Positions 383 through 61,700 of a DNA stretch of 64,000 bases are shown piece by piece. The number at the start of each line of letters is the position of its first letter. Positions within the stretch are counted from its first letter, which is position 1. Both the position numbers and the translations under genes were made by a program. Under the pieces are notes generated by a model, which searched no databases, was not told the DNA's origin, and saw only the letters and a list, made by a program, of their open reading frames with translations. Source of the stretch: Chrysomallon squamiferum (lineage: Eukaryota > Mollusca > Gastropoda > Neomphalida > Peltospiridae); the NCBI GenBank assembly GCA_012295275.1, contig CM022672.1:27835972-27899971 (forward strand). Reading direction: 5' to 3'.

Positions 383-414
<32 letters not shown>

Positions 415-752
415 AATGCCTACTCATGTTACAAACTTGAATAATTTCATATAAATATAAAGCTTGGATGTTCAATAAATAAGACAATATCATATTTACA
501 GATAAAAAGGTGGCCTGGCCACATACACTGCCTGGATTAACGTAATCCTACTATAATATAGGTTTTTGGGTTGTGTGTTTTTTCACTTTAACATAATTTC
601 CTCTAGATACATTTACTTAGATATCTTTTAAATTATGTCAAGCTGAATGTACTATAGTTATATATCCATTTGTCCTGTGCGTAATCATATACAAAAAATA
701 TATAAAAAATCGGTTTACGCGATTAACGCAGGGATTTAGAAAATACTGTTTT
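1..752. other. Non-coding, possible 3' UTR of the cytokine-like gene
   Basis: AT-rich sequence with stops in all frames and only short low-complexity ORFs. The part from about 380 to 752 may be 3' UTR of the minus-strand gene. Nothing else recognised. Confidence 0.5.
384..416 (-). promoter_or_regulatory. Candidate AU-rich element: seven overlapping ATTTA
   Basis: The plus-strand (TAAA)n tract reads as seven overlapping ATTTA pentamers on the strand of the cytokine-like gene, about 340 bases past its stop codon. Overlapping ATTTA runs are the classic mRNA-destabilising element of cytokine 3' UTRs. It could equally be a plain microsatellite: no clear AATAAA was found to place the 3' end. Confidence 0.35.
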
Positions 753-1104
753 TTATGACAAATACTGGGCTTCCATTGCAAAGTACTGGATTTCCAGAGA
801 GTCCAAGAAGGCAGACGTGTCCTTGTTGATAATAAAGTCTCGCTGGTACGTCTGTGCTATGGACAGTTTTCGGTATTTGTCGGGCATCGCCGAGCGAGTC
901 ACGTGAACATCCACTGATGAGTTCAGGCTTTGGAGAGCGATATCGATCTTACAAAGCATGGCGTAAATATTTACTTCCACTCTGCTGACGTCATCAAGGA
1001 ACTCGGATGCATGGTGCCCAATCTCGTCTAGGCGAACTTGTTCTAGCCAGACGGCGATTTTTGAAAGAGAACTGTAGTCTTTCTTCAGTGTCAAGATGGT
1101 CTGG

Positions 1105-1136
<32 letters not shown>

Positions 1137-1576
1137 TGGCGTTCGTCTGTTATGCTGAAAGTTACATTAAATGACTAGATGGTCAGTACCTTGTACAAAT
1201 ACTAGTTCCGACAGTATGAGTAATGGAATGATAAAATTATAAGAAACTTGACGTCCTGATTCCATGGTAACTAGTAAATCATTGACAACAATTGAAGAAA
1301 TTTTGTTATCTTTATAATTAATAAATTTCTTTCTTTCATTTTTATTTTTTTATTATATTTTTATGGTGGTTACAAAGTATATGAGACAGACGCTATCTAA
1401 GAAATAGTTATATGTAATGAACATACGTCTGTTTCCGCATCTGACATGGCCTCATCGGGATTTTTTTTTGTAGGAAATTCCTCCAGATGTACATTTTTCA
1501 GAAAATCCGCAACGTCTGAACTTAAGATTCGGTGCATCCGCTAAAAAATGGAAGCAAAAAATATTGTTCTTGATAA

Positions 1577-1617
<41 letters not shown>

Positions 1618-2175
1618 TTACCCCCCCCACAAAAACAACAACAACAACATTTAATTAAAATTAATGAATGACAGACATGCACACATACACCACAAACATA
1701 CATACATGCAAACATCCATCCATGAATTCATCGATCCATACACATATACAATCATCAAATGTGAGGGATGATTGAACTACCTTATTCAGATTAGCAACAT
1801 TAAGAATATTAATATAACCATACCCTGTACCTAAACCTTCACCGGGCTCCATTCATTAATTTCTGGATGTTATATCCGACGTTACATGAACGAGCCTCTC
1901 CCGACACCCATGCTAAGAAATGATGAGATACTAACGTTATAACTTACGTATTGTTCCTGCAACTGTTTTGAGTAATCCACTCCATTTTGAGTCAAATTAG
2001 CTATCTGACCTAAAGTCTTGTTAAGAGGCGGGAGAGGCAATGGATTCGTCCCCTCGATTTCTGTTGGCCCACAAGGGTGGGTCCATCTCGCAGTGGAGCG
2101 TCTTATGATCGGAGAGGAAAATACTGGCAGGACGAAGACAGCAATAGTTGCAATGAGTTTAATGCAGGAGTTCAT
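753..2175 (-). CDS. Secreted four-helix cytokine-like protein, 229 aa, three coding exons
   Basis: Exons 2175-1948, 1540-1427 and 1100-753 (TAA) join in frame with GT-AG introns, all phase 0. The product has a signal peptide (about residues 1-21, hydrophobic core IAVFVLPVF), a Pro-rich N-terminal arm with Cys35, then four predicted amphipathic helices: A about 51-93, B 115-139, C 144-174, D 201-227, with a long acidic A-B loop and a long C-D loop. Mature cysteines are only Cys35 and Cys164 (helix C). N-glycosylation sequons lie at Asn52, Asn60 and Asn174. Length, long helices, A-B and C-D crossovers and phase-0 introns are those of long-chain class I cytokines (IL-6/LIF/CNTF type); a disulfide from N-terminal arm to helix C is known in LIF and OSM. 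Family assignment is inference from layout, not detectable identity. It could instead be another small helical secreted protein. Gene model confidence is high, function moderate. Confidence 0.72.
1105..1133. repeat. (AAT)n microsatellite forming the 3' splice-site tract of exon 3
   Basis: On the gene strand this is (TTA)n running almost directly into the acceptor ATTCCAG of the last cytokine-like exon, in place of an ordinary pyrimidine tract. Confidence 0.85.
1586..1629. repeat. Poly(A) then poly(C) homopolymer tract
   Basis: About 30 A, a short spacer, then 8 C, inside intron 1 of the coding part of the cytokine-like gene. Confidence 0.9.
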
Positions 2176-2182
2176 TTTTAGT
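2176..2182 (-). other. 5' UTR part of the first coding exon and its 3' splice site
   Basis: A pyrimidine-rich tract ending in CAG at 2185-2183 sits 7 bases before the ATG at 2175. This implies that the coding exon is preceded by a separate untranslated leader exon. The context before the ATG is CTAAAA, acceptable for initiation. Confidence 0.6.
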
Positions 2183-4261: not shown

Positions 4262-4306
4262 CTTTAGATTCTCGGTTGCTCTAGATTAAATTTTTCAAAC
4301 GATATC
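4262..4306 (-). other. Candidate 5' untranslated leader exon of the cytokine-like gene
   Basis: On the minus strand a perfect-looking 5' splice site (AAAG then GTAAGTATTT, donor at 4261-4260) lies about 70 bases downstream of a TATA box. The stretch between contains no ATG, as expected for a leader. Splicing to the acceptor at 2183 would remove a 2.1 kb intron. The transcription start near 4306 is an estimate from the TATA spacing; the link to the gene is inference. Confidence 0.5.
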
Positions 4307-20600: not shown

Positions 20601-23600
20601 ATTTTTGAAAGATCTGAGAGAATTCCACTAACATTATTTTATCTGCACCTTCAAACAAATTAAAAAAATCAACAACCAAAAACCTCAAGAGCTATGGTAA
20701 ATCAAAGATCACAAATTGGAACTGGAAAGAGCCCACTTGGCACACAAATGAGGTCTGATCCTGTATGATACATCATGCCTCCAGCCACTCCTCCATACAG
20801 AAACATATGAAATATTAGAAGATTCAATACTTCATTTCAAGAAACATGCAATCAACATGGCAAGGCAGGATCGCACAGAAGTTCTACAATATGTACCACA
20901 CTGAATCAGAAGGAGTCAATAAAGGCTATAACTCCAGACAAAGGCGTTATAATAATTTGTAAGCTGCAGACCTCTGTCCATGAAAAGATGAAGAAACCCT
21001 AACCCTGTACACTTTACAAAACCAATTTATTTCTTTACATTCTCTTTTATTTTGTTTATTATACATACATTTTTCTTATTTAAAAACACATTACAAAACA
21101 TTGGGGTTGTTTTTGGGGTGCTGGAACAGATTAAATGTATTTCAATTAATTTCATTTGGGAAAATTGATTTGATAATTGAGTTACATGCTCAGTGACAGA
21201 ACAAATTAAACTTGTAAGACAAGGTACCATTGTCTATATATTCAGAAATGTATATATATATAATGGCTTTGAATATTCTACATGGTGGCAATTGGGAAAC
21301 AGTTATCATCCTACAATAATAGTTTTCATTGGTGAATATCTGTTTATTCTTAATAGGTGTTTTATGAGTGAAATAAAGAATGATTGGTGTATTATGAGTG
21401 AATTAAAAATGAACAGGTATATTATGAGAGATAAAAAATTCTGTTATGAACGAGATAAAAAAAATGAATAGGTGTACAAGTAAGATAAAAATGAATAGCT
21501 GTAGTGAGATAATAATAAATAGGTATATTATGAGTGAGATAAAAATGAACAGATATATTATGAGTGAGATAAAGAAAAATGTGTGTATTATGAGTGAGAT
21601 AAAAATGAGCAGGTGTATGAGTGAAATAAAGAAAAATTGGTGTTATGAGTGAGATAAAAATGCTTACATTCTTTTTCTGTCAACAACTCTCTTTACTCGC
21701 ACAGCTCTCTGTTCACTGTAAAGTTTACAAACAACTGAAAAACAACAGCAAAAAAAAATAAAAAATAATATTTTTAACAAAAATCTGTGTAATACTTGAT
21801 TAAACTGGAGCAGTTATATATTATTTCTGAAATAAATAAACCCAAAATGACATTGCAAAGTTAAAAACCAATCTGAGAAGAAACCCATTAGATTTACACA
21901 AGGATATGTAATGATTTAATATAACTACTGATGTTTTTTTCTAAATATTTAATTAAAGTTTATTTATGAAGTACAGTGATAACAAGCATATTAGTATTTT
22001 ATTTCACCCTACTGTATTCAGTTTAGGGATTGATACATACATGTATATATAATTCTTTTCTTCTTTTTTCTTTTTTAAATATGACAGAAGTGATTCCCCC
22101 CACCCCCTTTGTAATGAAAAATCTTTAATGTTGAAAAGTAAATCCGTATCAGTGATGGTTCTCCCATTTGCACTGCAGTCAGAGAAACAGGAAAACTTTT
22201 GTCCCTCACTAAAATTAAATTATTCTATCTGGTTATCAAGATGCCTAAAGACAGATAATATTAATGTATCAGACCAATATTTATTACCTTTAAACAGTAT
22301 TTTATATAAATAACAACAAAACAAAACCCTGTGATATCCCTGTTAAGAATCAACAGATACAAATTGAAAAATGAATAGGATAAGATAAAACGTTTTGAAT
22401 GGCAGACCTTTCAACTTTGAAATGTAAATAAGTTACTGAAAATATCTCAAAGATAGTCTACTACTAAAAACACTAAAGAAAAATTGAAGACATTCTATTC
22501 TCTCAGCTCTGTTGATTGCTACAAACAATTTCATTAACTTTAATAGGGATATTTTAATTATATAAATATTTCAGAACATTTTACCTTTAAGGTAAGTTTC
22601 TATCAACGCCATAACAACTTCACGATGTTCCCTCACTTGTGGATGTACACGTGAAGCATTGGCCTCTCTGCGGAAATTTGTGATTGTCTCTCTACACATC
22701 TTGATAATCTGTTCAGCTTCTGTGTCAATCTGATCTCTCTGAGCATCCGACATTGTCAGTGTCTCTAATACTAAGTGACTGAAAAAATAACAATCAACCT
22801 GTCAGTTATTTATAACATTATCATGTTTACAGTAAAAAGAATAGAAGAAATGAATGAACTGACGAGCACACAAACAAATGAATGAACAATAATTACCATA
22901 ATTTCATATCCTTTTCTTGACAGTATTAAGTGTTTTCATAAAACAAAAATAAAACACATGTAAAGTATTTTTACAGCAAGACTGATACACGTTTTCTTAA
23001 TAAGGTGATATAGTAATTACTGAAAATCTCTTTATGGTTATCTCTTTATACAGAAAATGTATATAATTAAACTGAATAACATTCCTAACAAACACACCAC
23101 CAATCCATCCCTGGATGGAGAGAAATTTGATCATTACTGCCTTTTCTTTAGCATAAGAAAAATGTTCAATAATTTTCGGTAAAACTTTCAAATTAGAAAT
23201 GGCCTTGAAAACCCAGATGGATTGGCAGATGTAGTTTGTTTTTGAAAACATTGAAAGACAAATACTTTGCCAGCAAAACAAGCTGAAAATAAATTATGTC
23301 TGACATGCTTTCTGTTTAATAGTCAGTGAATTAGCTAATGTACATAATTCAAATACAAATTTGCCAAGATGTTTCTCTTTTTAGTATTTTAGGTAATTAT
23401 TATAGAATGAAAATTAAAATCTTTAATAAAAGATTTCATAATATTTCTTGATGAATAGTAATTACAAATTATTATTTTAGTCAATATGTTTTTGTTATGG
23501 ATATAATTGCTGCAGTTGTTGGTGGTGGTGGTAGGGATTTGGGGGCAATGCAGAAAGTATACTAAAAAAACAAAAACCCAGAAAGTTCAAATGTTTTTAT

Positions 23601-27566: not shown

Positions 27567-30431
27567 ATAAAACAAAATCTGAAATAAATCTGGTTATCCA
27601 GATACAAAGCTATTTTGATCAAAATTCAGAGACATCCATGTTGAAAGGTAACCAACTGCAATTAGAAGTATTTTCTACATCAGATGACATCACTATTGCC
27701 TTGTGGTAAAATTTTGAGGAAGTGGAGGATTCAGAAAGTCAAAAAAGGGGAAGCACTATCACTGTGATAACTTCTATGATGAAAAATATTTCATTGATGA
27801 TATAAAAAAAATATTGGACAAAAATGGATAGGAATTGCTTTCCAGGAGTGATCCTAACATCTGCTTTTAATATGTCTTTTTAATTCTAAAGTACATGTAT
27901 GAAATGGTGAATTACGAACTATTATATTTATACTATTATTGAAGAGAAAATTTGTGAATTTTTAAAGTATGGAAAATTTATCCCTGTTCAGAAATGGAAA
28001 TTTGTTTTATGTTGTCCATTTTTATCAGGTTTTCTGTGAATGGTTAAAGTGATAAAAAAAATATATATCTCAAGTTATCACCGACTGTAAACTCTACACT
28101 GAAAAGTTGAAACAATTTTGATAGTCTGTTGGAAGAACATTTTTACATTTACATCTAAACTAGAAACAGAATTTTGATTCTGTATAATGGGTATGGATAC
28201 AATATACAGATAAAAATTATTTTGTTAACAGGAATATGAACAATCTGTTCGAGAGAAATGAAAAAGAAACAAATTAATAAAAGGATGTAAAACAATTATT
28301 TACGCAGCTTCAAAGGATGGACTTAAAAGATAAAATACTCAGCCGGGTGACATGAAATCAAGTATCAGTTCAGAAATCTTTTTTTGCTAAAGCACCCAGG
28401 TTTTTGCTGGTTTTTTAGGGTGATGTTACTGAAAGAATGCGTCAGTGCAATCTTACAGAACTCCTACTCTGCAAGAGTTGATCATGTTCATCTGATCTCA
28501 TTTACAGACATTTTATTTACTGTGATACTGTATTTAAATTCAAACTGAATTAAATGTTTTCAAAATAAGTATTTTGCTTGTTTAATAATTGTTCTTCATC
28601 TACATTTAGATTAATCTAAGGTCATTTAATTAAATTATTATATTATTTAACAATAAAGCATCTTTACCAGTTTTAGTTTACTCTGAACTGTTTACCTTCT
28701 TCACATGTTGTACATAGTGAATTTTTAATATTTCATATTCTGATTTTACCTCTGAATTATCAACAAAGAACAGAAGACAATTTAGCAGTTTTTTTTAATT
28801 TATTATCTTTATTCATTTCTTCTGTACCACCACCATATAATTTTTTTTATTTTTTTATATAAATCTTAATATATTATATTTCAGGCAACATTTTAAAATT
28901 GGGTATACATGTATATAAAAATACCATTATAAATACATTATCAAATATAAATTATGTAAAAATAAAGTATATTGAGCTTTTTGTATAACAAACTTACGAC
29001 AATGCATAGCCAAATGTAATGGAGCATAAATCACTAGCATACTAGTATCCGTTTCGTTTTTTCTAGCATAAAGTATTTTTAACTTACAGACAATATAAGA
29101 AAATGCACATCAAATAGTTAAAAGAACAAAAGTTACTTTATTTTTATTATTTTATGTCACAGCACCTGTCAATCTGGCCAAGTTGATTATTAAACATAAG
29201 ACAAAGATTTACAGTTCTGTCCTGATCAGAAACTTAGGTTTAAAAAAAGAAAAAAAGAAAGTTAAATAAATGATAAAGTCATATTTGTTCTAACTTTAAA
29301 TTATAGTTGTTGCCTTACAAAGAAAATGTCACTTGTCACATATTAATTTGGGGGAGAGTTTTTAACTTGTGTGTGCATCTCAATCAGTTCCAGCCAACCA
29401 ATAAAAAATTTAAGTATTTTGAAATATAAAAAATAATACAGTGCCCTTCTTTTAAAAGCAAATATATCAAAATATGCTATTACAAAAAAGAAGAGAAACG
29501 TATAAGGCAAAATCTAGTGGAATTCTGTGAAGAATTGGTTCTGTAATACTTAAGGTGCCTTTAATAAGTAATGTTTGTTTGTGCTAAGGTACTAATGGTA
29601 ATAAAAGAAGAAACAGATAAGCATTACATTTAATGTAATAAAATATAATTGGTTATGATGTAAATAGATGCAAATTTAAAAAAAAAACAAAAAAAAAACA
29701 ACTGTAAAATTCCTCAATATATTGGAATATAAAATTTCAAAGCACTTGGTAAATGTTTTACAATATTAAATCATTCAAAACAGTTGACCATTTTTTAGAA
29801 ATACAAAGTGCAAGTGGATATATTTTAATATAGCTGTGACTGCAAATTGTTTTGTGTGGAGATTAAGATGTTGGGATTTGTGTAATTTCATTTGATACAT
29901 ACATACCCATTATGCATAAAGTGATATGCATTTGCTAGAAAAATGTGTATGTTTGCCTCTATCTGTTGTATGTTCATGCACTTAAGATGGGTTAAACATC
30001 ATTTAACAAGTGTCTGAATAAAATGATAGATAATTATAAAAAAATATTCTGGTTACTCTGATAAATGTTAACATTGATCAAATTCAGAACCACAAAAATT
30101 AAAATAATAAATAAACTACTACAGGATTTCTACAAACATAACTGTTCTTATCTTCAGTGATTACATATACTGTAAAATGATTGACAATTTGCAAATAATA
30201 TAACAATTGAAAAAAGTATAAATAATTTGTTCCTCAACCTAATTATGTAACATATTTAACAGACCTGCTGATAAAATATTTTATTATACCAAATCAAGCT
30301 CAGTTTTTGTTCAAATATATAACAAAGTGTTACATATTAAGTTCATTTTCTGTGAACATTTTTTTCACAGAAGTCCATTTCTCTTGAACAGAAAAACAGC
30401 TAGTTTAGTTTTTCAGTTTTAACAATGTATT
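27567..30431. other. Spacer between convergent TM2D2 and PGM3
   Basis: 2.9 kb of AT-rich non-coding DNA, presumably holding both 3' UTRs. AATAAA occurs near 27567 and at 28652-28657 for TM2D2; minus-strand AATAAA at 30284-30279 suits PGM3. No further gene seen. Confidence 0.6.
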
Positions 30432-31026
30432 TTAGCATGGCACTGATGGCTTTTCTCCAACACCACCTGCAAGTTCATAAACTGTAACAGCAACCTCTCC
30501 AGCCAGTCGGTCAGCTGAATCCTTTGAAAAAACAGAGCATTTTACATGTAACATATTTTGTTAAGCCTCACATTACTGAAAATGTATGTAAATGTTTAGG
30601 TGTCTGCAGGGGTGTTACAAGATGAAGGAATTTATAAAATGTTTATGCATCCCTCAGACCCGTATTAACACAATATATAATTAAGCAAATGTGATCAATT
30701 TTTGGTATAGAATTAGTTTAACAGTGTAACATCAACAGAGTAAATTTGTATAATTCTTAGTTGTTATATGCATTAACGTTACTATTTAACGCATCTTCAC
30801 TCATAGACAATGTAACTGCTGTACCCATCTTTACCCACAAGGCAGATGTGGTCCATCTTACCTGAGTGTCAGCTTCAGCATAAACTCTAACTATGTCCTC
30901 TGTCCCAGAAGGTCTGCATAACAATAAGAAAAAAAATACATTTTGGGAATTGTGTAAATTTCATTATGAATTAAATGCTAACAAATAGTAATAATTTGAA
31001 AAATAATTAATTTCTGCAAAAATGAA

Positions 31027-31073
<47 letters not shown>

Positions 31074-34000
31074 AAAGAATGTATCCCCACAAAAAATTGT
31101 CATCAAAGTAATATTTATGCCAATTCTACTGTTAACACTCCAACTGCAAATTGTAAAAATAATCTATAAAAAATTATGATGCTCCCAAATTCTACAGGTA
31201 ACTGGATAAGTAGAATTATAAATTTCACTTATGAATCTAATTTTTACTTGAAGAATTTCAAAGTACATTAGTAAATGAAATGAAACTAAGTGGAAGATTT
31301 TCATTAAGAATATTAACAAATCAACAAATCCTTTCAAAGTGAAACATCTCATAACATTAGGCATATTGAACAATTTCAACTTCAATTATAACCCATCAGT
31401 GCACAATACCATGTAAGAAGTCAAAAATATTTCACATTATCCTACCTAACAAATGAACGTCCATTATTAAACTTTTTCACAGTGATATCAATGGCTGCTT
31501 GAAGACCTTTGGGAGTTACCACTTTCCTTTCAGCATCAGTTGTTGTAATTACAGTTCGATCTTTAACCTAAAATTTTAATAACATTATCCTGACTGAATT
31601 ATGCATTTTAATAAGGCTTTTGGTAAACTTTAAAACATATCTCAAAAGTGGATATAAAATAATTTGATAGATGAAGCTGAAAAATGGTTGACTTTTGTCA
31701 TACTGGATGAAGTTTGGTTAAATTACTGTCTTAAGGTACATTTTTTAGATTATTGTTAATAAAATAATAATAAAAGATAAAAATATATTTTACACTTAGT
31801 AAGGAAATGATAAAAACTTAATCCAGAAGATCAGTGTTAATGTACTATCATTTAAACATTTTTTTTTTATTATCATCTGTTACCAAGCAGGCATGCAGTA
31901 TGTCATAATTTTAGAAATTTTATTAAAAAATCTATCAAAATCTATTACTAGGCAAATATACAGTATATGATGATTTTTTATTTTTTTTATTAGAAAGTCT
32001 ATAAAAATCTGTTTAACACACATAGTACAAAATGTTTTTCAAATTTAGAGTAACTGCATTAGAAAAATCTAAAAAAAATTCACAGCATCTAAAATCTAAA
32101 AAATACATTACAGTAATATTATCTCAATCAGACAAAATCTACAAAATATATTACAGTAATATTATCTCAATCAGACAAAATCTACAAAATATATTACAGT
32201 AATATTATCTCAATCAGAAAAATTTACAAATTTATTACAGTAACATTAATTCAGTCAGAAAAATCAATTAAATCACATTAAAATCTATAGAAAATCTATT
32301 TAATACTTTAGTTACAGAGACATACTTTGACTTTAAGCTGTCTGTTGGGAAGATCTGTGTATGTAGCATTCCACTTATCCATGCTCCATCCTCGTACATA
32401 CAGAATAGTTTCAACTATCAGCATGTCTGACATAGCATCACCCACAGCCTTTAAAACACATTTAATAGTCAAAGTAGTAGTTGCTGTTGCTAGTGATAAA
32501 ATGTTGCTGTGGTTACTAGGTGGTTGTAGATGTTTCTGATGATAAAATGTGATCACTGGTGTTCCTGTTGTTGGCAAAAATGTTGTCATAGATATTGATG
32601 TTGTAGTTACAACAAACAGTCATAAATGTTGCTGTTGTTAGTGATAAAATATGGTAGATGTTTCTGTTGTTGGTCATAATGTGGTCATAGTTTTTGCTGT
32701 TGTTAATGAATGAATGAATGAATGAATGTTTAACAACACACCTGCTGTTGTTAGTGATAAAATTTGTTGGTGGAAGTTGGCAGATGCTGCTCTTGTTGGT
32801 GGTGGTTGTAGATGTTGCTACTGGTAATAACAGAACATTAAAGTATACATTTGGCTGAACAAATATATATTTTCTATACTTCATAATAACTTTTTTATTT
32901 GTCGAAACATGAAAAAATACAAAGGTGGGTATCTTTTATACCATACTTCTATTTACAAAATGATGTCACAATAAAAATGAAATAATATTGGCTATTTTGG
33001 TTTCAAGCAGTATTAAGTTTTAGATTCTTTGCTAAAAATTAGTATTTATCTCAGTTATCTGCATTTACATACCTGATTAATAAGATCCATGAGGACAGAC
33101 AATTTGACTGCAGCCTGTCGTTTCTCTAACTGCACACTAAAATAACAAATCCATTTATATTTTTAAAACAATGCATGTAATCTTAAATTATATCTAAGTA
33201 AAATGGTGATCTTAGAAATCTTTAGAAGTAATAGTTTTATACACTGTAATAAAACCTTTTAAAAATAAAATTATAATATGACCAATTTAAATATGTTATA
33301 ATAAAATATAAGTGGTAAGACAAATACAATTCTGTAATTATACTGTTAATGTTCATGTATTGATTCAGTTCAAACTTTTATATTTTAACATTATATTTAT
33401 TGTATTAATGTTGGTATTATACCTATTTACCTATACCAAGATTATTACCGATTCATTTTAAACTTAATCTATTCTAACAGGGCATATTTTATTATTACTT
33501 TCTTAAATTTATGACAGTTAGTCTAAAGAACTTTCAATTACATTCATATACAGATTTTATTTTTATAGATATATTCTGAATAAACACAGAAAATTAAAAT
33601 AATTCTGTTTTTAAAATAAACAATAAAAGTACATAAATAAATAAATAGAAAATAAAATAAAATCAATCAACCATCCATCTTTCCATCCACTCATCCATCC
33701 ATAGTAAAAAAAAAAAAAAATGAAAGCAGCCCTAACAAGTTGTGCACTGGTTTACTGTGACTTCATGATACGCACCTTGTATCACTACTGACATCAAGAA
33801 TGATATCAGATGCATGATCACTGAACAGAACCTAAAGAAAAAACACCATTTTATTAAAAAAACAAACAGTTTATCAATTTATTTAGAAAAGCAGTAAAGC
33901 AAGTGGAAATATTTTATTACATATCATAATCAAATATCTACAGATTTTATACAGGTGAAATCCTTCAAAAGAGTATACTGAGATACTTTCAGAAGGAGCA

Positions 34001-37000
34001 TCTTCAAATCAATAGAGAAATAAATGAGTTTATGGAGTCTACACTCTCATTTTACCCAACCTCAGTCTCAGAGACGACAATGTAACCCATAGTTCCTATA
34101 ATACATGCTTACTGTTCCATGTCCATTAGCCTCAAAGTAGATACCAATGTCAAACTCTTGTGCTTTGTGATGTAAATGTTTTACTCCTGTTGGTACACAG
34201 ACTACAGGAACTTTCTAGAATTATAAAACCAATAATTTTTAAAATGCTTGTACACATAAACATATATATTAGATTACATTTATAAACCAGTAATGGAAAG
34301 GAGTTTTTTCTTAATTATTATATATTAAAATAAAAATGAATATTTTAAAGACACTTTCATATATCAACATAATAAACATATTTTTTATCTTAACAGATAT
34401 GTGTTTTGATGTTACGATCACTTTATAAATGCATTACACTAATACTGATTACTTTTGCTTAAGATATTTTTACAAATGAAATATTTATAAAAACTGAGAA
34501 GTTATATTAAAACCTACTTATGTTATTGATTTCCACCAGTTATTTTTCAAAAATATTTTCTCAAGTATATCCGTGAGTGTATTTTTATACCAAGGAAAAT
34601 AAACTTGCCAGTTCCTGTGTTATGTAATTAGTTGAGCTTCCATTAGCATATGCTGTTTGCACAAGCCCAAGTTTTACGTTGATACCACTTTTAGAAACCA
34701 GCTCTTGAAGATACCCAGCTATCTGTAAAATATACTTAAAAATATTATCCAGTACAGATAACTACAGATGCAGAAAGACACAGAGATAGAGTGACAGACA
34801 CACACAGAAACACACAGAGAGAGGGTATCTAGACATATTCAAACACACACACACACAGACAGCATAATGATACTTATACATGCCCAAATACACTAATACA
34901 ATAAGAGTACTCACTAAAGTAGCTATTTTATCTCCATCTACTAAATGGAATCTTCCATCTGAAATGTAAAGAAAAATTAATAATTAAACAGTTATAGTAA
35001 AAAATTAAAAAATACAAAACACACCCAGCCCCAAATTCCTGTCTTTCATTTTCCCTAAATATCACCAAATATATTTATATAACATATGTACACCTCAAAA
35101 ATATACCTATGTCTGTGCATTTTTGTATTTATATGTCACATACATTTATATATCATAATGTTATGTTAGGTTTTATATAATTTATATATAAATATACACA
35201 AACTCACATGCATGCATGAACACGTACACAATGTGTTCATGCATGCATGTGAATTTGTGTACATGTGACATATAAACACAAAAATTAAAGGTAGAGGTTA
35301 GTGAAAATTAGGAAGCAGAGGGCTTTGATGCATTTTATATACATATACATTGTGTGTGTGTGTATTTTCTGTTACTTATTTAGAAAGTCAATACTAATAT
35401 TTAAATTATAATTACCTTCTCCAATATAGAAATACACAATTCTATCAGCGTCTCCATCAAAAGAGACACACTTCATTCCAGACTTTACATTCAAGCCTGC
35501 AGTGAAATAGTTAAAACAATAAATCAATAATTAAATGTGAATGAATATATTTAATTTGTGAAAATGAATGAGTATATAATTTTAATTTGCAAAAGTGTTT
35601 TAATAAATATATGTTACAGTGGTTCTTATTATTCACTCTGTGTGCAAGTTTCTGCGTACTGTATTTTTCTGTTTATGTCTCTCAGTAAATATATACATAT
35701 TATACAAAAACTACAAGAATCAAAATACATGCCCTTTAATTTTGCATAAACTTTTGTATAATCAATTTAAAATTCAAGACAAAATGAAAAGCCTGTAGAA
35801 AGACGTTTCTTATTCTGAAGGTAACTTATCACATTATATATGTCACAGTAATGTAAAAACGTAATGTGAGAAATGAATAGAAAGGTCAAAGAAAATTGGA
35901 AATTACCTAGTGGAGCTTTCTGTGTGATTTTAACAAAATCAGCACCACACTGCAAAAGATAAGATACTGTTGATATAACAATTATTCCTAATAAGTTTAA
36001 CTTACAGGTTTTTCAAACAAAACAAAAAACACAACAATTTCACAGCTTTAGAAATGTACAGTAACCTGTAAATAAATTATTACTTAAAATATCAGTGTCC
36101 ATAATATTAATTAAACAAAACAGTAAATATGAAACATTAAATCTAGTTTTTATTCTTAAGAAAAAAACCATTTAAATACTGTATTTGATCTAAATTAATA
36201 AATCAAATTTATTTTCAATAAATTGTATTAATAATAGGCAACACCTGAAAATTCAGTTTTCCCTCTGTGCCATTGTTGTAAATCTTTATGTATAAATTAT
36301 CATTTAGTTGCTTTCCCAGCATTTCCACCTTCAAAGCCCCAACTCCATTAGCAGCATCTACATGTACTGTTGTCTGATAGTCACCACATTTGGAATTCTG
36401 GATTTAGTTGTTAATGGTTTTATCAGTCACAAAAAAACAAAAAATATTATAGACTCTATCAACCATCTGGCAATAAAGAAAAATGATAAAAGCAAACTGC
36501 CCTGGATATAAACTGTATCAGTGGCACTTTCCAAGATCATTTCAGATGTAGACATATATCTTCCAATATGTTAAAAGTTAAAAAGTAATATACATATATA
36601 TTTGAAACCAAAAATATACAAAAAAAAAAAACTGTCTTAACAAAACTTGCTATGGAGACTTTGAATGGATTATTATGCTTTAAAGTTTGCTTTATTTGTT
36701 TCTCTGATATTAATAAAATAAACAGCTTATTATTTATGTGAATTCAAATTTGGTTCCTTTTGAAAAGCTTTCACAAAATATACCATTTTCTTTATACAAA
36801 AATTGTTGACTGCTTTTTGCAAAAAAATCTATACATATGTATGTAACTTTTCTTTCTTAAATCTCTTTAAAAAAAACAAAAACAACAATATTGCATGTAA
36901 TAATTAAATTTCAACACACTAAAAATGAAAAGAAAACACTGATTAGTACCAGATCTCTCAATTTAATAAATGCTTGAGACAACTTCATATAGTAACCATC

Positions 37001-37514
37001 TTCTGATGCTACTCCATAATGACCATTTGTATTGTCACAGACCACCATGTAATGAAGCTGTGGCGTAGTCAACAACCCTGAAATCCAACACAATAAACAA
37101 ACACCAGTTCAATTTATTTTAACATTATGAAGTTTTAATAACATATTTCATATACTTTCTCTATAATGATGACAAGAAACAATCATCACTAGTGGGCTGC
37201 ACAGATGAAATAACAGTGAGAAATATTTTATATTAATAGACAGAAAAACACAATGATAAATCTCTGATAACTAAAAATGGTGATGCATCTGACTGGAGGA
37301 AAAAACCATAACATACAATAAAATATTAGATATCAGAATATACACCAAATGTGTGATATAAGGAATGTTAGTTATGGAATACTTTTAAAGAAGGAAATAC
37401 TGAGTTTGTTTTGATATAATACATCTTTGCACAAGTAACTAATCCTATTTTCTTAAAAATAAAATAATTTTAAAAATCAATAATGCCTGAAAAAACCAAC
37501 AAAGTCCCAAACAA

Positions 37515-37553
<39 letters not shown>

Positions 37554-40552
37554 TACTGGTGTCAAAACGTAGTTAAGATATTCAACAGTTAAAACAGAGA
37601 AACAGTAATCCAAAGAAAGATATGAACAATAAAATGCAGGAACTTAAGAAAACAACAAGTAACTAAACGTCAGTGCAGTCCTTCATTTGCATGTAATAAA
37701 ACCATCCTCCACAGCAAATGGAAGATGTCAAGTATTTTAATTTTGAGTGGCACAGATCTATATTTAAAATATTAGAAAAATTATAAAGAAATTCAATATA
37801 AAATACATTATCTGTTTTAAATCCTCCAAAATAAGGGACAATGAACTGTCTTGAATTTTGTTTTTAATTAATAATATATTCACCATACTCAATAATTTAC
37901 TGTAGTGAAATACTAAAAGTCTATCAATAAGAGTAACAATGTCTCACCATAGTCATGAAAGTTCCCCTCTAGAGCCTTAATACCGCTAAGTAATGCCTGA
38001 GCTAATGATGGACTGCTTGGCCTATTACAAATACAATGTTTTAAGGTTTAGTTGTAAGAACAAATAAAAACAATAAAGAGACACAGAAAGAGAGAGAGTG
38101 GTACAGTGTTCCTTATTAATTATTAACCAAATTAATTAACATAACTGTGATTTAATTGATTTTGTTAAGAATTAATGAGAGGTTCTCTTTCTCAGATATA
38201 TCAACTTCATCTTAACCACAGACTCAGTGCAGATATTAAATAATACAAACAATTATGTATATAATTATGGTTAGTGCAGTTTGCTAGATTTAGTGTAATT
38301 AGTAGAAAGAAAATGATAATAATATATTAAAATAGAAAAATTAGTTAAAATATATTAATTAAAAACTACAACAATAAAAAACATTTAAAACAAAAATGTA
38401 TGGTCTTTAAATAAAATCCAATTAATGTACCTTTTCAAAATTTGATTCAAAACGAACATATTTCATATAATAACTAACACATTTCAAAACTAAAATAAGA
38501 AAAACAACAACAAATACACACCAACAGTTAATGCACAATTTATCATAATGATAATATGATAATGTATACCTTGTATCCCTTGCAAAAAAAACTTTAGCTT
38601 TCTGAGATATTTCTATATTTTCAGACTTAATAACTTTCCTAAGGATTTCTGGAATATTTTCATCACTGCAAAATAGAATAAAATTAAATGTTTTAAAAAT
38701 GTGTCTAACTGTACATAACAAACATCAAATAAATATTTACACACACACACACACACACATGTATACATAATATAATATTTAGATTCATATATATCAAATA
38801 TAACATATACATCATCAGAATTCCATTTGAAACATATCATATCCACTAAAGAACTTCTAATTTGGCAGCCTAGACAGGCCAACTCTGTCAGTGTTTATAT
38901 TATATGCATATACTATAGAGAAAGTTCTAAAAACTAAATAGTGGCAAGACCAAGTTAGTGAGTTCCACTGTACATTTCTCTTAGTTAATCAGTTAGATTT
39001 ATTATCTTGGTACTTACTCCATATTAGCAAGCTCTGTTGCATATTTCTCCCAGGTCAGTGGCATCATCTCTCCAAGTTTGTCAACCAGTTTGACACCATT
39101 GTCATCCTCAGGATTGTGAGAAGCTGTGATCATCACGCCAATAGTTGCTGGAATAAACCACACTAAAATGAATTAGATTTGAAAATTCATATTTTTTATT
39201 TTTTATTTTATTAATAACTTCTGTAAAAAATATTGAATTAAATATTATAAAGGTTTCAAATTTAAAATAGAATATAGATGTTTATTATGTTTACTGATGA
39301 TTAATTATCATAAATCTCTATAAATATATATATCAAGTGTCATACTTATAAGTCTATGGGAAGTTCATATAAAAAATAAAGTTTTATAATGTTATAAGGT
39401 AAAAGTGTTTTCTCTTATTTTTGTTGTAAAATCATACACATGACAGCTATTTATTATTAATATAAAAGATATGCTGAGTGAACTGAAACACTTTTAACTT
39501 TATATCTTTTCACACAAATACACACACAAACACAATTCAAATTATTTTGATCAATTATAATTATATATATATATATATATATATAGTTAAATGTTTATAA
39601 ATGTATTAGTAAAAGAAAATTTCTTATCAAAATACTTTGGGGAATGTAATGTAACACTTGGTTTACCTTTTCTGCACTTTGATGCTAAAACAGCCAGCAA
39701 TCCCATTCGATAAATAACATGATCCAAGAACTCTGCTCTAAAAATAATGTTTTATATCTATTTAACAGTATATATAGCCAATTTTTTTTTTTTTTTAAAA
39801 GATGTCTGTTTAAAACCCATAGCATTATGATTATTTGTTTCATTATTTTATAACTTTTTAAACTTGTCTTGTATTCCTTTTTTCTTTTCTGTTGTTCTTA
39901 AATATAATACAACTGTTTCATATAGCAAAATGAAATATATTTTAAAATTTGCTTTTGCAAATTAATCTGGGAAGCCAATAGTTACATAGTATCAGTATGA
40001 CATGCACACGGTTAAGGAAATAATATTTATTTGATTCATTTTTTTGTTACCATTACACAGTAACATTACTCTAGTGTTTATCCTTACATGCACGGATATT
40101 GATAGTATTTTAGAATAATAAATAATTATCATAATATTAAAATCAGTTAATGTTATATAAAATGTTTCAAATACTTCAATTACCAACTGCTTATAAACAT
40201 AACAATAATTATAATTCCTGCGATTTAATTTACAGATTGAGATTACCTATAAAGACACTACTTGACATTACAGATATACTTTTAAAATCACCTAAGAATG
40301 GCAACATTCTTATTATACTTATAGTTACATCTCTCATCCTAAAACGTCACACGTGATATTTAGCACCAATTATTAAACCTAAAACCATTTTTACTTCATC
40401 AATTTGTCTAAATATTTGTTCAGAACTGCGTAACAAAATATTATATTAAACCTGCAACGGAAGCCGGCTGTTCCATACTGTATTGTAATTTCTTGTTTCC
40501 GTGGGTGTTTCTTACAAGCAATATCTTTCGCTCTCTCGAACTGCTCGTCCAT
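30432..40552 (-). CDS. PGM3: Phosphoacetylglucosamine mutase, 547 aa, 18 exons
   Basis: Exons (5' to 3') 40552-40452, 39737-39667, 39147-39018, 38665-38570, 38021-37948, 37077-36950, 36397-36245, 35949-35907, 35496-35416, 34958-34915, 34722-34609, 34214-34113, 33831-33776, 33136-33073, 32448-32326, 31567-31446, 30913-30862, 30521-30432. The cytosolic enzyme converts GlcNAc-6-phosphate to GlcNAc-1-phosphate on the route to UDP-GlcNAc. All catalytic elements are present: QYGTAGFR near the N-terminus, the phosphoserine loop [13 protein letters not shown] (Ser67), ARDTRPSS, the Mg loop DGDADR (279-284), the sugar-binding EANGHGT (373-379) and the phosphate-binding [16 protein letters not shown] (from 501). 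Length matches the 542 aa human enzyme. The exon joins keep frame throughout; intron 11 appears to be GC-AG. The first ATG in exon 1 is the start. Confidence 0.97.
31029..31067. repeat. (AT)n microsatellite in PGM3 intron 16
   Basis: About 19 AT units. Confidence 0.9.
32107..32275. repeat. Minisatellite, 43-bp period, four copies, PGM3 intron 15
   Basis: ATTACAGTAA starts copies at 32107, 32150, 32193 and about 32233. The first three are nearly identical (TATCTCAATCAGACAAAATC) and the fourth is diverged. Confidence 0.85.
32460..32835. repeat. Diverged GTTGCTGTTG-rich repeats, PGM3 intron 14
   Basis: Imperfect, irregular copies containing GTTGTTAGTGATAAAAT at about 32480, 32637 and 32745 with a (GAAT)n patch near 32710. 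Open frames across it are repeat-driven. Confidence 0.65.
35118..35288. repeat. Nested inverted repeat (foldback) in PGM3 intron 9
   Basis: Inner arms 35196-35223 and 35233-35260 are reverse complements over 28 bp with one mismatch and a 9 bp loop; they contain ATGCATGCATG. Outer arms at about 35118-35144 and 35262-35288 also pair (core TTATATGTCACAT). The shape suggests a foldback or MITE-like element; no transposase or target duplication was identified. Confidence 0.7.
37517..37551. repeat. (GT)n microsatellite in PGM3 intron 5
   Basis: About 17 GT units. Confidence 0.9.
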
Positions 40553-41215
40553 TCCTATCGTTAACTGTTTCCTAATAGCTAATTACGCTCGTTCTAATTA
40601 TGTTATTGAAGATTCAAAATATATGAATTTTAACCAATCTATTTGAACTATATTTATCTTTTATTAGAGATTTATGATAACGGGGAAATAACCGTTCAGT
40701 GTAACTACGATTTGGCTATCGTTATTAAGAACAACTTGTAACGAGAAGCAATGTGAATGTCACAGCGTAAACAAAAGAAGAACATAACTAGCCTCCTTTT
40801 GTTCTTTTATACTGTTATATTATAATGTTCGAAAAACATGACGGCACTTGCTTTTCGTTATCATATGACATATTTTATTATTATTTTTATGTAGTGGTAA
40901 AACTCAGGTATTCAGCTTGAATTATCATTATGCTACATCCGGATAAGCTTCCTGAATTAGCCAGTTACATAATTATGGGATAGTGCACCATGGATGTGTA
41001 CTGATACAGGCAATATATATATAAACGCATTAAAAATAATAATTATTATTTATTTTATTTTATTTTATTTGCAAAAACAGTAAAATAATAAGAACTAAAT
41101 TTACAGTATAAGGCTACACAATAATGTTATATTATGAAACAGTGCATGGACAAGACCCAAAATACGATTTTTTTTTCTTTCTTCATTAAAAAAAAAAAAA
41201 AAATGTTTTATTTTA

Positions 41216-41255
<40 letters not shown>

Positions 41256-42682
41256 TATGGTTGTCTGTTACACAGTTGTTATTCAGGATTAAGTACTGCG
41301 CAGTAATACACAATGTGTATCTATTCAGTTTTACAATTATCTTAACATCTCTTGTGTGTTCTGTTGGTTTGGGTGCTAGTCATGAACACAGGAACAACAT
41401 AACAGGCAACATTTACCTAACGTAATAAGGCAATTAAATTTTTTTTTTTTTTTTTTTTTTATAAACATGGGCCGTGTCTCGATTAATTCAGTATCTAATT
41501 TTATATTTATAGATACGTCGTGCCAACTTTCTGAATATCTTACTCAGTGAATACACGGACATAATGTATTGCCATTCAAGTAAAAAGCTTTCCTGTTTAA
41601 ATTATTTTTGCGTTCTTTTTATGTATATCAGTATCGATTCATCCATGAGTATAATTTTATATGTATCATATATATTTCGTGAATGTGTCTTTATGCAAAC
41701 TATGAAAATCATTATAAATATATATATCTTTCTTGCTTGAGGTGAATAAAAAAGAAAACGATCAGACTGTCTGACATACAGCTAGATAATATCGCTCACT
41801 TATTAAATAATTATTTCTAAAGTATTATATTTAAATAAACAAACAAACAAAATAAATAAACAGAAAAGAACGAAACGAAACGAAACTTGCTTGATCGAAA
41901 TCAAAAATCGTTTTTTATTTATATGTCATTATTATTATTATTTTTTTTTTTTAATAATTTGAATTTTTCTTCTTTAGACACCCACACTGGAAGTTTTCTG
42001 TAGGTAATGTAAACAGTGATTCAAAAGAGTGTCCCTCTATCTATTTTTATCTAAGCACACCTCCTATGACGTAGATAAATAAACCTGATAGGATAAAAGA
42101 ATGTCGCCCACCGGTAATACAGGTATAGAATTCCCTCAATAGGCCAACCTAAGGTGGGTTTGCCACATTTATTTATTCATAAAATGACCGCACCTTACGA
42201 TCACGACGACGATAGAATCCTTTGTGGTAAACAAGGGTGTGAAACATTTCTTGTTACTTCACTTCTGGGGGAAAGACATTTATATAAATCTCAGAGGTTT
42301 ATATTTTTAATTTTTTCCCCCAGTTTGGTTTGATATTAATAACAGAGTGTCTGAGAATGTTTTAAACATACCAACATCAGATTAAAATGATTCGATTCAG
42401 TTACTGATACAGAATCTGAGTCTTACAAAATACAGATAAAAAAAGAAGTTATACGTGTAAAAAGATACTGCGACTTGTAAGTTGTTCTGTGAGGAGTTTT
42501 GTTGTTTACCATCTGAATTTTATTTTTGACAGTGTTGTTTATTTTAATAAGCTTTCAGTGTAAAAAAACGGACTGGATAAGAGGACATTATAACTGTAAC
42601 AGCATTTTTTTGATAACTAAAGCGTTAGTGTTAAGATAATTAACTGTCAAAAAAAAGAAAAGAAAAAAAGACAGCAACCAGA
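40553..42682. other. Divergent intergenic region, PGM3 / dispanin-like gene
   Basis: No coding exon seen. Holds (ATT)n at 41219-41254, several poly(A/T) runs, and the promoters of both flanking genes. A less AT-rich stretch at 42040-42260 is the best candidate for the dispanin-like promoter, but no core element stands out. Confidence 0.5.
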
Positions 42683-43279
42683 ATGAAAGAACGAGAAATC
42701 AGCAGGCATCCTTCTTACCACAACAGATTTAGATCAAGTCTTGATTCTGTGGGAACTAGCCCTACTTCAGATCGTCCCCAAAATCTGTCTGTCTCTGGTC
42801 TCACACCTGACAAAGAAACAACTCTGGTTTGGCCAGGATCTGCAAAACGTCATCAGAGGACCAGGACTTCAGTTTCTTCTACAGTAAGGTCGATCTCTTT
42901 CGAATCCAACCCCGATGACGTGTTCGTGGACGTTGAACATCAGGATGACACTAACGTGAATGGCAAAATATTCATTAGAGCGACTCAATCAACTGCATCA
43001 ACGACATCGATGTTACCCAACCCTTACAATAAATTTAATCATATTATGCATTCTGTGGTGTGGTGTGCTTGCTGTTTGTATTTTGTTTTAATCTGCTGCA
43101 TGCCTGCTGTACATTATATGGAAAAATCTGACACGGCGTTTCGAAGCGGAAATGACATGAAAGCGAAAAGAACAGCCAGAATGTCTACCCTTATGTTTGT
43201 AGCAGGAACAATCATAGCTGTTGCTGTCTATGCGGCCATTTTGTTTCTTGTGATATTTTTTACGGCATACAATACCTGA
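42683..43279 (+). CDS. CD225/dispanin-family (IFITM superfamily) two-pass membrane protein, 198 aa
   Basis: A single uninterrupted ORF. Residues 1-115 are polar, Ser/Thr/Arg-rich and probably disordered and cytosolic. The C-terminal part has two membrane segments (about 120-143 and 167-193) joined by a short basic loop. The layout fits CD225: a Cys cluster CACC (128-131) in segment 1, likely palmitoylated in this family; then KSDTAFRSGNDMKAKRTARMS, where the G-D-x-x-A spacing matches the conserved intracellular loop; and a Gly in segment 2. The family includes IFITM antiviral restriction factors, PRRT2 and TRARG1-like trafficking proteins; which role applies here cannot be told. Unlike most vertebrate members, the coding region lacks the intron usually found within the CD225 domain. 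A 5' UTR intron is not excluded. Moderately sure of family. Confidence 0.75.
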   Translation: MKEREISRHPSYHNRFRSSLDSVGTSPTSDRPQNLSVSGLTPDKETTLVWPGSAKRHQRTRTSVSSTVRSISFESNPDDVFVDVEHQDDTNVNGKIFIRATQSTASTTSMLPNPYNKFNHIMHSVVWCACCLYFVLICCMPAVHYMEKSDTAFRSGNDMKAKRTARMSTLMFVAGTIIAVAVYAAILFLVIFFTAYNT

Positions 43280-55352: not shown

Positions 55353-58173
55353 ACATAAAATGAACTATAAACTGAGTGATCAAATTTTGAGGTTTAAACT
55401 GATATACTGCTTAACATGTTCATCATATTTTTTTATTTAAAACTGTTGTAGGTAACAGTACGGTACCACAAAGAGATGGGTCATTTTGTTGAAAATCTTT
55501 CTTGAAGTCATTAAGATTGAAAAGTGTAATCTGATGTAAATCTTTTACAAAGCAGTTCCTGGTTTCATGCAATACTTAACACAATGAGTTTAATTTTGAA
55601 ACATCTCAAAAGAGAAATTTTCCATTAACTATATACTTAGTACATATTACATGCAGTGATGAAGATGGGTTTTGAAAGGGTATGTTAACGTCAGTTAAGT
55701 TAAGATTTGGGAGAAGGAGGGAGTAGCTTTATAATGTATTCTTACAGGCATACATTGTTCTGAAATTTACATATTTGCTTTAATGTACAATATATATTTC
55801 CACTTGCACTATTGCTCTGCTACAAAAACATCTCTGACACCATACCAGCATAGAAAGTGAACATAAACTGGAAACAAAAAATTAGGGGAATGCCATCCCT
55901 CTGTATACCCCACCTTTCTTTCACTGATCAGAACACAACTAATTTTAAAGATTTTCAAATAGTCCATAAAATCAGCCTTTATGTCAGTTGCAATTATTTT
56001 TCTCTGCAGTATGTATTATAGTACCATTTCAAATCACAAAAGCCTTGCTCTCCATTCAGATTATGCTGCTATATATTACATATTTTTAGACATTTTTCTT
56101 TTCAGTTATCATATTTTGTTATTGCTATTATATCACACAAAATGATAAAATACTTTATTGTTAGCAAATATTAATGTTATAAAAATGTCACTTGAAAACA
56201 TACAAATTATATTCTGATTTTTTTTTTAAATTTCTGTCACTATATATAAACTTTAAAAATGGTGTAAAAGTTTTAATAAAATAATGAAGTATAGATGTAA
56301 AAATAAATGCTACATTACCACAAAGAGATGGGTCATTTTGTTGAAAATCTTTCTTGAAGTCATTAAGATTGAGAAGTGTAATATGATGTAAATCTTTTAC
56401 AGAGCAGTTCCTGGTTTCATTCAACTGTGAATACTTAACACAATAAGCAAGATCACTGTAGTAACTGAAAAACAAACAAACAAACAAATAAATAAATAAA
56501 TTAACAAATAAATAAATAAATATAAATCAAATAAATAGATAAATGAAATGAACTGAAATGATAGAAAAAAACTGTAATAATAAATAAAAAAAAATAAAAA
56601 AAATAAAATAAAATAAATATTAAAATTATAACAATAATTATTTTTTAAAACTCAAAGATTACATACTTTTGAGGTAAAAATCAATTCATAGAAGTTGAAA
56701 TTTTCATATTTAGAGCTTTCTGTTTGACTAAAGCCTGTTTTTCAGAATTGTAAAATTATACTTTACTCATGTTCAAAGCTTAATTTAAGTTAAAATTCTA
56801 GCATTTTAGATTTATTTCCATTTCGTTAAATGATGATGACCTTCATCTTGAAGATGTTCTACATTTTTGTTGGAACTGTTCATTGATTTATTGAAATCTA
56901 TAGTGTCACTATGAGAATGGCTAAATAAATAAATAAAAATAGATTTGACGCTTGATATCCTTCAAATATTTTATAAAATATAATTAAAAAATATATTTAT
57001 ATAATTATAAATGTTGAGAAGAACAAATCTGAGAAAATAATGATTAATTCTACACAAAAATTGTAGTTAAAGAAAAAGTATTTTCAGTACCAATTTGTTT
57101 ATAAATTAAATTTTACCTGCATTTATCACTTAAAGAAATTTGTGTTCTGTTAAAAAGATCAACTGGGCCTTTGCAGTTTTGAACATAAATTTCTTTTATT
57201 TTGTACCAAGAAGGACATGCTTCATTGATTTCATATTCTGTGAAGAAAAATATCTGATGATTTAATTTTTGTAAAATAGGATTCATAATAATAATGATAA
57301 TAATAATAATAAAGATTATGATGATGATGTTAATAACAATAGTAATAATAAAAATAATAAATATAATAAAATTTCCACATATACTAATATTAATGATAAT
57401 CAGATCATTAATGATCCCAAAACAATAAAAATACAATTAATACCAGCTCTACCAAAATAATTATAAAACAACAACAGTAAATAAATAAATATAATTAAAG
57501 AAATATGTCAGGTTAGTGTATGAAAAAATAAACGAAAACAACAAATTCTAAAGATTACACTGTTTCTGTATTTATTAGCAACATCTGAGCTGACATTGAT
57601 ACCTTCACAAGATGTTGGTGCTGTATTGCCAAACAAAGTCATCACATACATCTTAGCAACATCAGCCACTTCTTGATGAGTGCATTTCAAACCAATTCTT
57701 GTAAGCAAGTTGTAAATGCAATTAGTTTTTGACAAAATGGTGCTACAAAAAATACAAAAATAAATATTAAAAAAGAAACTTTATTGACATGTCTGGAAAT
57801 AATTAGTATAATTAAATGAAGTTTTACAAAATTTAATCAATATGATTATCATATGTAACATAGTAGTAGTAAATAACCTGCAGTTAATTTTTGTTGGTTG
57901 TATCTCTTGCCCTGGTCTGTCATTGCAAATATAAAGGAGAGCATATTTGTATGCTGAAGGATCTCTGCATGGCAAAGGAGCAGGAAAAGGAGCAACTGTA
58001 GGAAGGATAACTTCATCTTGTACTGATAAGACAAAATATAAAATATTACAACAATAATAGAATATATCTTTTATTAAAATAAAAAAAACAACAACAACAA
58101 AACAAAAGGAAAAGCAAATAAACAAAGAAAACAGAAAAACAAAAACAAATTTAAAATAAAAAGAAAGAAAGAA

Positions 58174-58204
<31 letters not shown>

Positions 58205-58727
58205 TAATAATAAATAAGTAAATAAATAAATGAATAAAATTATTACTTGTGTATTTAAAATTATTATTTGTTTAAATAAAGTGATTTTAATACATTCTAC
58301 ATTGTGTTATATGTCCCTGAAAAGTAGTCTTTACTAATAGTAAAGTATGTATAATAAATTTGTAAAATTGCAGGTATATAAGGCAACTTTATAATTATTT
58401 ATTCTATTTTAGATGTTTCTATTTTATCTTTCGTTTTGTAGAACAATGTCATTTTACAATAGACAATTATTTTATTATCATACACTTTTATTAATACAGC
58501 CTGATGTCTGAAACAAAAAAAAATATGTTACCAGTGAAAATTCTAGATCCCACTAATAATAATAACAACAAAAACAATAAATAAATAACTAAAGAAATAA
58601 AATAAAATATAATAAAATTAGCAGTTTAAGTAAATAAATAAATAGATAAGTAAATAAATAAATAAAAAAGTAGTTAAATAATAATTTAAAATTCAATAAA
58701 AAGTAAAATGTAATAAAATTCACAATG

Positions 58728-58761
<34 letters not shown>

Positions 58762-61700
58762 AAAATTAAATAAACAAATTAATACATATGCACAAATTCT
58801 TAGTTTGATAAATAAGTATATCAACACTCACCCAAAAATGATGATACATCCCACCCAGCCAGTGCTTCTTGTATTGTTTTTTTCAAACTCAGAATTTGTC
58901 TGCTTATCATGTTTACTGAGCATTTGTATGGAGTTAATCCATTCAGTGTATATGTCAGACAGCCCATAAAGTATCCAAAGTGTCTAATAATAAACGAAAA
59001 TCAATAATAGCGACAATAACAAAATAGGAATAATATGAAAGAAAATAATAACTGATAATGGTGATGAAAATGATAATTATAATAACAAATACAAAATAAT
59101 AATAATAATAATAATAAATAAATAAATACTGTTTTAAGAATTATTATTATTTTTAATGATGGTAACAATAATAATGTTTATAAAGTGTTATTAATAATAT
59201 TAATATGCTTATAATAATAATTATTAAATAACTGATAACAATGCTTATAATAATAATTATAAAAAAAGAAAGTAAATTTACTTTCTAAAGTTACCAAAGT
59301 TACAGAATTAATTGAGATTTGGCATTTGAAATTACAAACCTCCATTTGTCAGCCGTTTTATCTTCCAGGATCTGCTGAATAGGCTCCATGCAGTAACTCT
59401 GTCCATGAGACCAGATATAGTCCCTATCTGGACACGCTTCCTCATGCAACCCTGGAAAAAAAGTTCATAAACATTAAATGTGTGTCTGTGTGTGTGTCAT
59501 AATGAGTGAGTGTATATATGTATACGTGTTGTTTGTGTATATATGGTGATAAAAGTAGTAATAGTATAAGCAGTAGTAGTAGTAATAGTAGCAGAAGTAG
59601 TAAGTAGTGACTGTTGCAATAGATGTAATTGTGATAGTGAGAGATGTATTAGTAGTAATAGTAGAGCTAGTAGTGCTAGTGATAGTGGTAGTGTAGTCGT
59701 AGTAATAATAACAGTAGTAGTAGTAATAGTAGTAATAAGGATAGTGGTATTATAGTAGCAGTAGTAGAATTAACAATATTGACAGTTATAGTATAGTGAT
59801 AGTATAGTAATTGTGGTAGTATAATAGTAGTATAAGTTGTTGTAGTAGTAGTAATGATAATCACAATTAGGTGGTTGTAAGTAACAGTGGGGCTAATATC
59901 AGTAGCAACAACAGAACAATAATAATAATGTTAATATCTTGTGACTGTTATTGTGTATTGTTATGTGTAGATAACATTTGTGTATCACAGATATAAAATG
60001 TTACCTAGGCATGATGGAGGTACTGCAGAACCAAGAAGCATGTGTTTGTAAATTCGAAATGTCTCTACAAAATCTGACGAAGAACACTGAAGATCTTTTG
60101 TAGCAGATGCAAAATGCATATATGCTTTTTGTAAACACTCCATTAAATTTCCCAAAGGTCTGAATAAGAAAAGAAAATTTTTGAAAAAAAGTATAATTTG
60201 TAAAGGAACAGTAAATAATAATTTTGTATAATATATGTAGGTATTTGATTATATTATATTTATAATTGCTAGTTTTTAATATACATTTTTACACACAAAT
60301 ACATACATATTTTCAGGAATATAATTAAGCTATTTTGAAAGTAAACATGATTTTCAGTATCAGAAATATAAATATTTTTATAGTTTTCTTAATCAGTATT
60401 GAACAAATAATTAGATATGGTTTGAAATATGTTTTAAACACACACAGACACACACCCAAACACACACACAGACACACACACAGGCATGCTGATAATGTTA
60501 GGGTAATGTGTTTGTTATTGTTTTTTAAAGATAAACAAGGCCTAGGTTAACATGATCTATTATCACTCAGCAAAGTTGGCCCTATAACAATAATGCTATT
60601 GCAAAACATTTGAATTCTGACATTTGACCTCTTTAGAACTACAGATGTAACCCCAGAATGCATATTTTCTAACTCTAGAAGAAACTTCAACAAAGATATA
60701 AATTTTTTTACTTGCATCCCTCCATTTGTGTCTGCAGTTTTACAGCATTGAGGTCATCTTTGCAATCAAAAACAGAGATGTAGTGTACAATGTTAGGATC
60801 CTGACAGACATTGCTGTAGTTGGGTGGACCAATAAATGTGTCCAAATCTGTATGGATAAATACAGGAGTATGTATTTATTAGATGTTGTTAAATGTTAAA
60901 ATGAGTAATGATAATAATAATAATAAGAAAAAAAGGAAGTAATAATAATAATAATAAAAATTATAATAATGATAAAGAATAATAGTAAATGTAGTTGTAG
61001 TAATAATAATTATTATAAATAATAATAATAATAATAATAATAATTGCAATAATAATAATAAATAATAATGATGATGATGTTGATGATGATTTCGATGATA
61101 GTAGTGGCAGTGATGATATTTATATTAATTAAAAATAATAATAATATTAATGAAATAATAATAATAACATCAATAACAGTAATGATAATTCTCAATAATA
61201 ATAACAATTAATAATAACAATAATCATTTTAATAATAAAAAATAATAATAAACTTGTTCATCTGTTTATCTGTCTCTCATTGTTTCATTGTACTTATATC
61301 TGTGTATTTTAGAAATATAGTATAAACCGTTCTATTAAAATAACCAATGTGCATGCATGTGTTAATATTCAGTTTCTGTATTTTAATTTCAAAAATTAAC
61401 CTACATGGACAAGTACTTGGATTCCATTGTTCTTCATCAACTCTTTTTTCAAAATATTTTATTGCAGCTTTTGGAATATAGTAGGGATGACAGTCTTTGT
61501 GTAAGTAACTCACCATAAACTGAACACACGATACAAAATAATAATATGTGCTGAAAGGAAACAAACAAAATAATAATATGTGCTGAAAGGAAACAAACAA
61601 AATGATAATATGTGCTGAAAGGAAACAAACAAAATAATAATATGTGCTGAAAGGAAACAAACAAAATAATAATATGTGCTGAAAGGAAACAAACAAAATA

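Follow-up and report, generated by a model that had tools for sequence, protein, structure and literature searches.

A stretch of 64,000 nucleotides of Chrysomallon squamiferum DNA (the window; contig CM022672.1, positions 27,835,972 to 27,899,971) carries on its minus strand, at 753..2175, a three-exon gene whose predicted product of 229 residues is most aptly regarded as a candidate long-chain, class-I-like cytokine that stands outside the vertebrate subfamilies. That the gene is genuine is certain for practical purposes, and its product is small, predicted to be secreted and probably all-helical. The favoured reading, to which a probability of about 0.5 is given, is that this deep-branching gastropod has here a fast-evolving helical cytokine that is secreted and glycosylated and encoded by an apparently single-copy gene. 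The odds that the product is a cytokine-like four-helix protein are likewise about even, and those that it is a homologous class I ligand acting via a gp130/Domeless-type receptor are about one in three. The kind of cytokine represented by this candidate is not known from molluscs.

Gene structure and the Gigantopelta aegis orthologue

The gene model of the initial annotation (start at 2175, stop at 753, three exons, two GT-AG phase-0 introns, 229 residues) was reproduced, and both of its splice junctions are crossed cleanly in an alignment with a protein of the vent snail Gigantopelta aegis. The segments named below rest on putative helix positions.

1948..2175, minus strand: coding exon 1 (76 codons, 228 nt), with the ATG at 2175 and followed by the donor GTAAGT; putatively the signal peptide (residues ~1-20), the N-terminal arm with Cys35 and a short RR site, a proline-rich stretch and most of helix A, with sequons N52 and N60
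1541..1947, minus strand: intron 1, phase 0, GT-AG; junction QY/RM contiguous in the G. aegis protein
1427..1540, minus strand: coding exon 2 (38 codons, 114 nt), preceded by TTTTTTAG and followed by GTATGT; putatively the end of helix A and the A-B loop
1101..1426, minus strand: intron 2, phase 0, GT-AG; junction TD/TI contiguous in the G. aegis protein
753..1100, minus strand: coding exon 3 (115 codons plus the stop TAA, 348 nt); putative helices B and C (with Cys164), C-D loop (with sequon N174) and helix D

The GC content of the exons is 43-46%, as opposed to 26-32% for the introns and 27% for the window, and this contrast, together with an independent G. aegis protein that aligns across both splice junctions, places the gene call beyond chance. 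Reading of the translation bore out the two mature cysteines and three N-glycosylation sites previously noted, with cysteines at residues 4 (within the signal peptide), 35 and 164, and sequons at residues 52, 60 and 174. The mature chain has a computed mass of ~23.8 kDa and a computed isoelectric point of 5.4. When the species' own genome (404.6 Mb, 22 contigs) was searched with exon 3, the single match at E <= 0.001 was exon 3 itself.

Among ~5.8 billion proteins, the sole relative found was the G. aegis protein, uncharacterized LOC121384604, also of 229 residues and 64% identical over 97%. No further homologues were added by searching with the sequence pair, or with the G. aegis region of the last exon alone; very diverged relatives may escape such searches, because shared exact 5-residue words are required. 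Gaps in the pairwise alignment are confined to the signal peptide and the extreme C-terminus (where G. aegis has four more residues), and the mature chains are 66.5% identical over 209 residues. By segment, with borders placed on the putative helices, identities are 24/32 in the N-terminal arm, 23/40 in A, 13/22 in the A-B loop, 16/24 in B, 20/35 in C, 17/24 in the C-D loop and, highest of all, 26/32 in D. Both mature cysteines and two of the three sequons (52 and 174) are kept in G. aegis, whose protein has one additional mature cysteine five residues past the second. The first 20 residues are hydrophobic in both orthologues although their sequence differs there, and it is on this hydrophobicity that the predicted signal peptide is based.

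Exon layout, fold and likeness to known cytokines

The 3' boundary of exon 1 falls close to where putative helix A ends, the small exon 2 has phase-0 introns on both sides, and exon 3 begins just before putative helix B. If the helices are correctly placed, phase-0 introns thus flank an A-B loop exon, as in class I helical cytokines, with putative helices B, C and D in one exon because the snail gene has no later intron. In an alignment with G-CSF the snail introns lie ~4 and ~1 residues from what we take to be the human intron sites, and in the case of growth hormone (GH) the first lies ~4 and the second ~8 residues from the presumed human sites. The short-chain cytokine IL-2 has the same exon plan, in the order signal peptide plus A, A-B loop, then B and C, with phase-0 introns. 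That all introns are in phase 0, as had been pointed out, is seen in this gene and is in keeping with the genes of IL-2 and of IL-4/13, the latter reported to consist of four coding exons separated by three phase-0 introns (PMC4905449); five coding exons are given for human IL-6 (PMC1660534).

The four predicted amphipathic helices of the initial annotation were not confirmed in that form. When the averaged pair was tested for amphipathic helices, two regions stood out, C (p 0.002) and the end of A (p 0.04); p was 0.10 for the start of A, 0.43 for B and 0.87 for D. In real G-CSF, GH, LIF and IL-6, helices B and D likewise escape this test (p > 0.05 in 8/8 cases, with helix borders set by the analyst), and the failed tests therefore count neither way. 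Structure prediction, which had been proposed as a check, gave two low-confidence AlphaFold2 models, both mostly helix and without a trustworthy topology. The first, for which the three window exons (exon 1 minus five codons) were added as rows to the G. aegis chain, reached a predicted local distance difference test score (pLDDT) of 40.7 and a predicted template modelling score (pTM) of 0.24, and the second, made from window exon 3 and the G. aegis protein, a pLDDT of 49.3 and a pTM of 0.28. Such low confidence is expected with just two related sequences, and so speaks neither way. Neither Pfam nor NCBIfam gave a match, and the PDB gave no significant sequence match.

The closest known systems are the vertebrate long-chain class I cytokines G-CSF (CSF3) and IL-6, the growth hormone/prolactin group, and the LIF/OSM/CNTF/CLCF1 group to which the initial annotation had pointed; the short-chain class I cytokines IL-2 and IL-4/13 are added for their gene layout and the insect Unpaired proteins for their role. 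The snail protein appears to share a weak, co-linear, full-length similarity with long-chain class I cytokines such as G-CSF. The likeness to G-CSF, IL-6, LIF and OSM was first spotted by eye, with controls made later, and the gap scheme, which carries a mild end-gap cost, was picked after a good G-CSF alignment had appeared. LIF and OSM carry a disulfide that joins the N-terminal arm to helix C, and the snail protein likewise has a cysteine in the arm and another towards the end of putative helix C, which may be bonded to each other. An F-x-x-K motif at the start of helix D marks the LIF/OSM/CNTF group; the snail protein has Y-Q-R-D at this position, and [FY]xxK occurs in it just once, at residue 98 within the putative A-B loop. 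Also absent from the snail protein is the PROSITE signature of the IL-6/G-CSF/MGF family, given as C-x9-C-x6-G-L-x2-[FY]-x3-L (PMC1660534). Since both motifs fail, the protein is filed under neither group, and the earlier suggestion of a class I ligand is partly supported.

Receptor context and competing explanations

According to a screen of 18 phyla or subphyla (PMC13203501, 2026), IL6 occurs in vertebrates only, whereas IL6R, JAK and STAT occur together in molluscs, for which alternative ligands were proposed. This screen is expected to miss the snail gene, because it relied on BLAST at at least 30% identity. Among the titles and opening lines of abstracts listed by literature searches on invertebrate or molluscan helical cytokines, no molluscan class I ligand appears; an interferon-like protein with its receptor is reported from oyster (PMC8218723). 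In insects, Unpaired (Upd) and Domeless are described as a JAK-STAT ligand system (PMC13203501, PMC7378365), and the likeness of the Upd ligands to the snail protein lies in the proposed role as an invertebrate JAK-STAT ligand. Upd proteins were absent from the homologue-search results, which gave the G. aegis protein alone, and no Upd sequence was compared directly.

If the product is a cytokine, its signal peptide, predicted from the hydrophobic N-terminus, would be removed, and the short N-terminal arm perhaps trimmed at the RR site. The chain would fold into four helices, A and B being joined by a long loop that has an exon to itself, and C and D by a long connection, and a bond between the conserved Cys35 and Cys164 would brace the N-terminal arm to helix C. 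By analogy with proteins of this kind, the secreted protein would bridge two copies of a gp130/Domeless-type receptor and activate JAK and STAT, with the highly conserved helix D and the N-terminal arm as possible receptor-contact surfaces. More tentative, at well short of even odds, is the proposition that the protein fills the vacant ligand role for the molluscan gp130/Domeless-like receptor. It would then be a protostome long-chain class I cytokine that shares its ancestry with G-CSF, IL-6 and growth hormone, and the phase-0 'A-B loop exon' cytokine gene would predate the protostome/deuterostome split. Were this true, the long-chain cytokine gene layout would date to early bilaterians, and the failure of ordinary sequence searches to find such ligands would be explained. 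With this conserved candidate, whose coding sequence is defined, the missing-ligand gap can be tested directly.

With BLOSUM62 and no end-gap cost, the Z score for GH stays at 4.0, but that for G-CSF falls to 1.9, for LIF to 1.0 and for IL-11 to 0.3. A search of the species' own genome for the IL6R-binding Pfam family, limited by exon splitting, yielded two matches that contain stops and do not reach the cut-off; this outcome speaks weakly against a receptor that is easily recognised.

The main rival reading, with a substantial share of the probability though short of half, is that the protein, though all-helical and secreted, is specific to the lineage and no cytokine. It could, for instance, serve neomphaline snails in reproduction, in the digestive gland or towards symbionts, and would bind a partner rather than signal through JAK-STAT. 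A prohormone processed into short peptides is improbable: basic pairs at which it could be cut are present at residues 25-26, 101-102, 120-121 and 191-192, and in the G. aegis protein too, but conservation extends over the entire mature chain (57-81% in each segment) and is not confined to a handful of short peptides, and neither a repeated nor an amidated peptide motif is apparent by eye. Marginally less probable again is a class II helical cytokine of the interferon/IL-10 type, the similarity to the one class II sequence compared being lower than or equal to that to G-CSF and GH.

Flanking and neighbouring features

Upstream of the candidate cytokine gene, the following elements may belong to its leader and promoter.

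2176..2182, minus strand: putative short 5' leader that runs from a putative splice acceptor, TTTTTTCAG, whose end is at 2183, to the ATG
4262..4306, minus strand: putative 5' untranslated exon, with a strong donor AAAG/GTAAGT at 4262
4336-4328, minus strand: TATA-like TATAAAAAG, used to estimate the start of the putative 5' untranslated exon
4436-4425, minus strand: AAAACTGAAACT, like an interferon-stimulated response element, upstream in the possible promoter

The last of these could mean control by an interferon regulatory factor, the pattern having been picked after being seen. As evidence it was set aside: AAAACTGAAACT occurs once against 0.06 expected for this post hoc pattern, and a looser pattern occurs 18 times against 9 expected. 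STAT sites were likewise discarded (6 found where 4.7 were expected, and none of them close to the gene), as was an AU-rich 3' element, since the ATTTA repeats 340-370 nt past the stop (window 384-415, on the gene's strand) form a TTTA microsatellite array of a kind that the window has 11 times. No poly(A) signal is found in the 752 bases past the stop, and the flank beyond contains masked bases.

Elsewhere in the window, minus-strand open stretches at ~30391-40580, including 39001-39170, resemble phosphoacetylglucosamine mutase exons, and one at 22571-22780 resembles an exon of a syntaxin-18-type SNARE. Several cysteine-bearing open stretches on the minus strand at ~56188-62964 might together encode a single secreted or membrane protein; for three pieces of them, Pfam gave no match above the cut-off. 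On the plus strand, 42644-43279 is an open frame of 211 residues with, by eye, two hydrophobic stretches like membrane spans near its end, and its Pfam match is at chance level. Window bases 1-60 recur ~7.7 kb to the left, and a repeat is thus present there.
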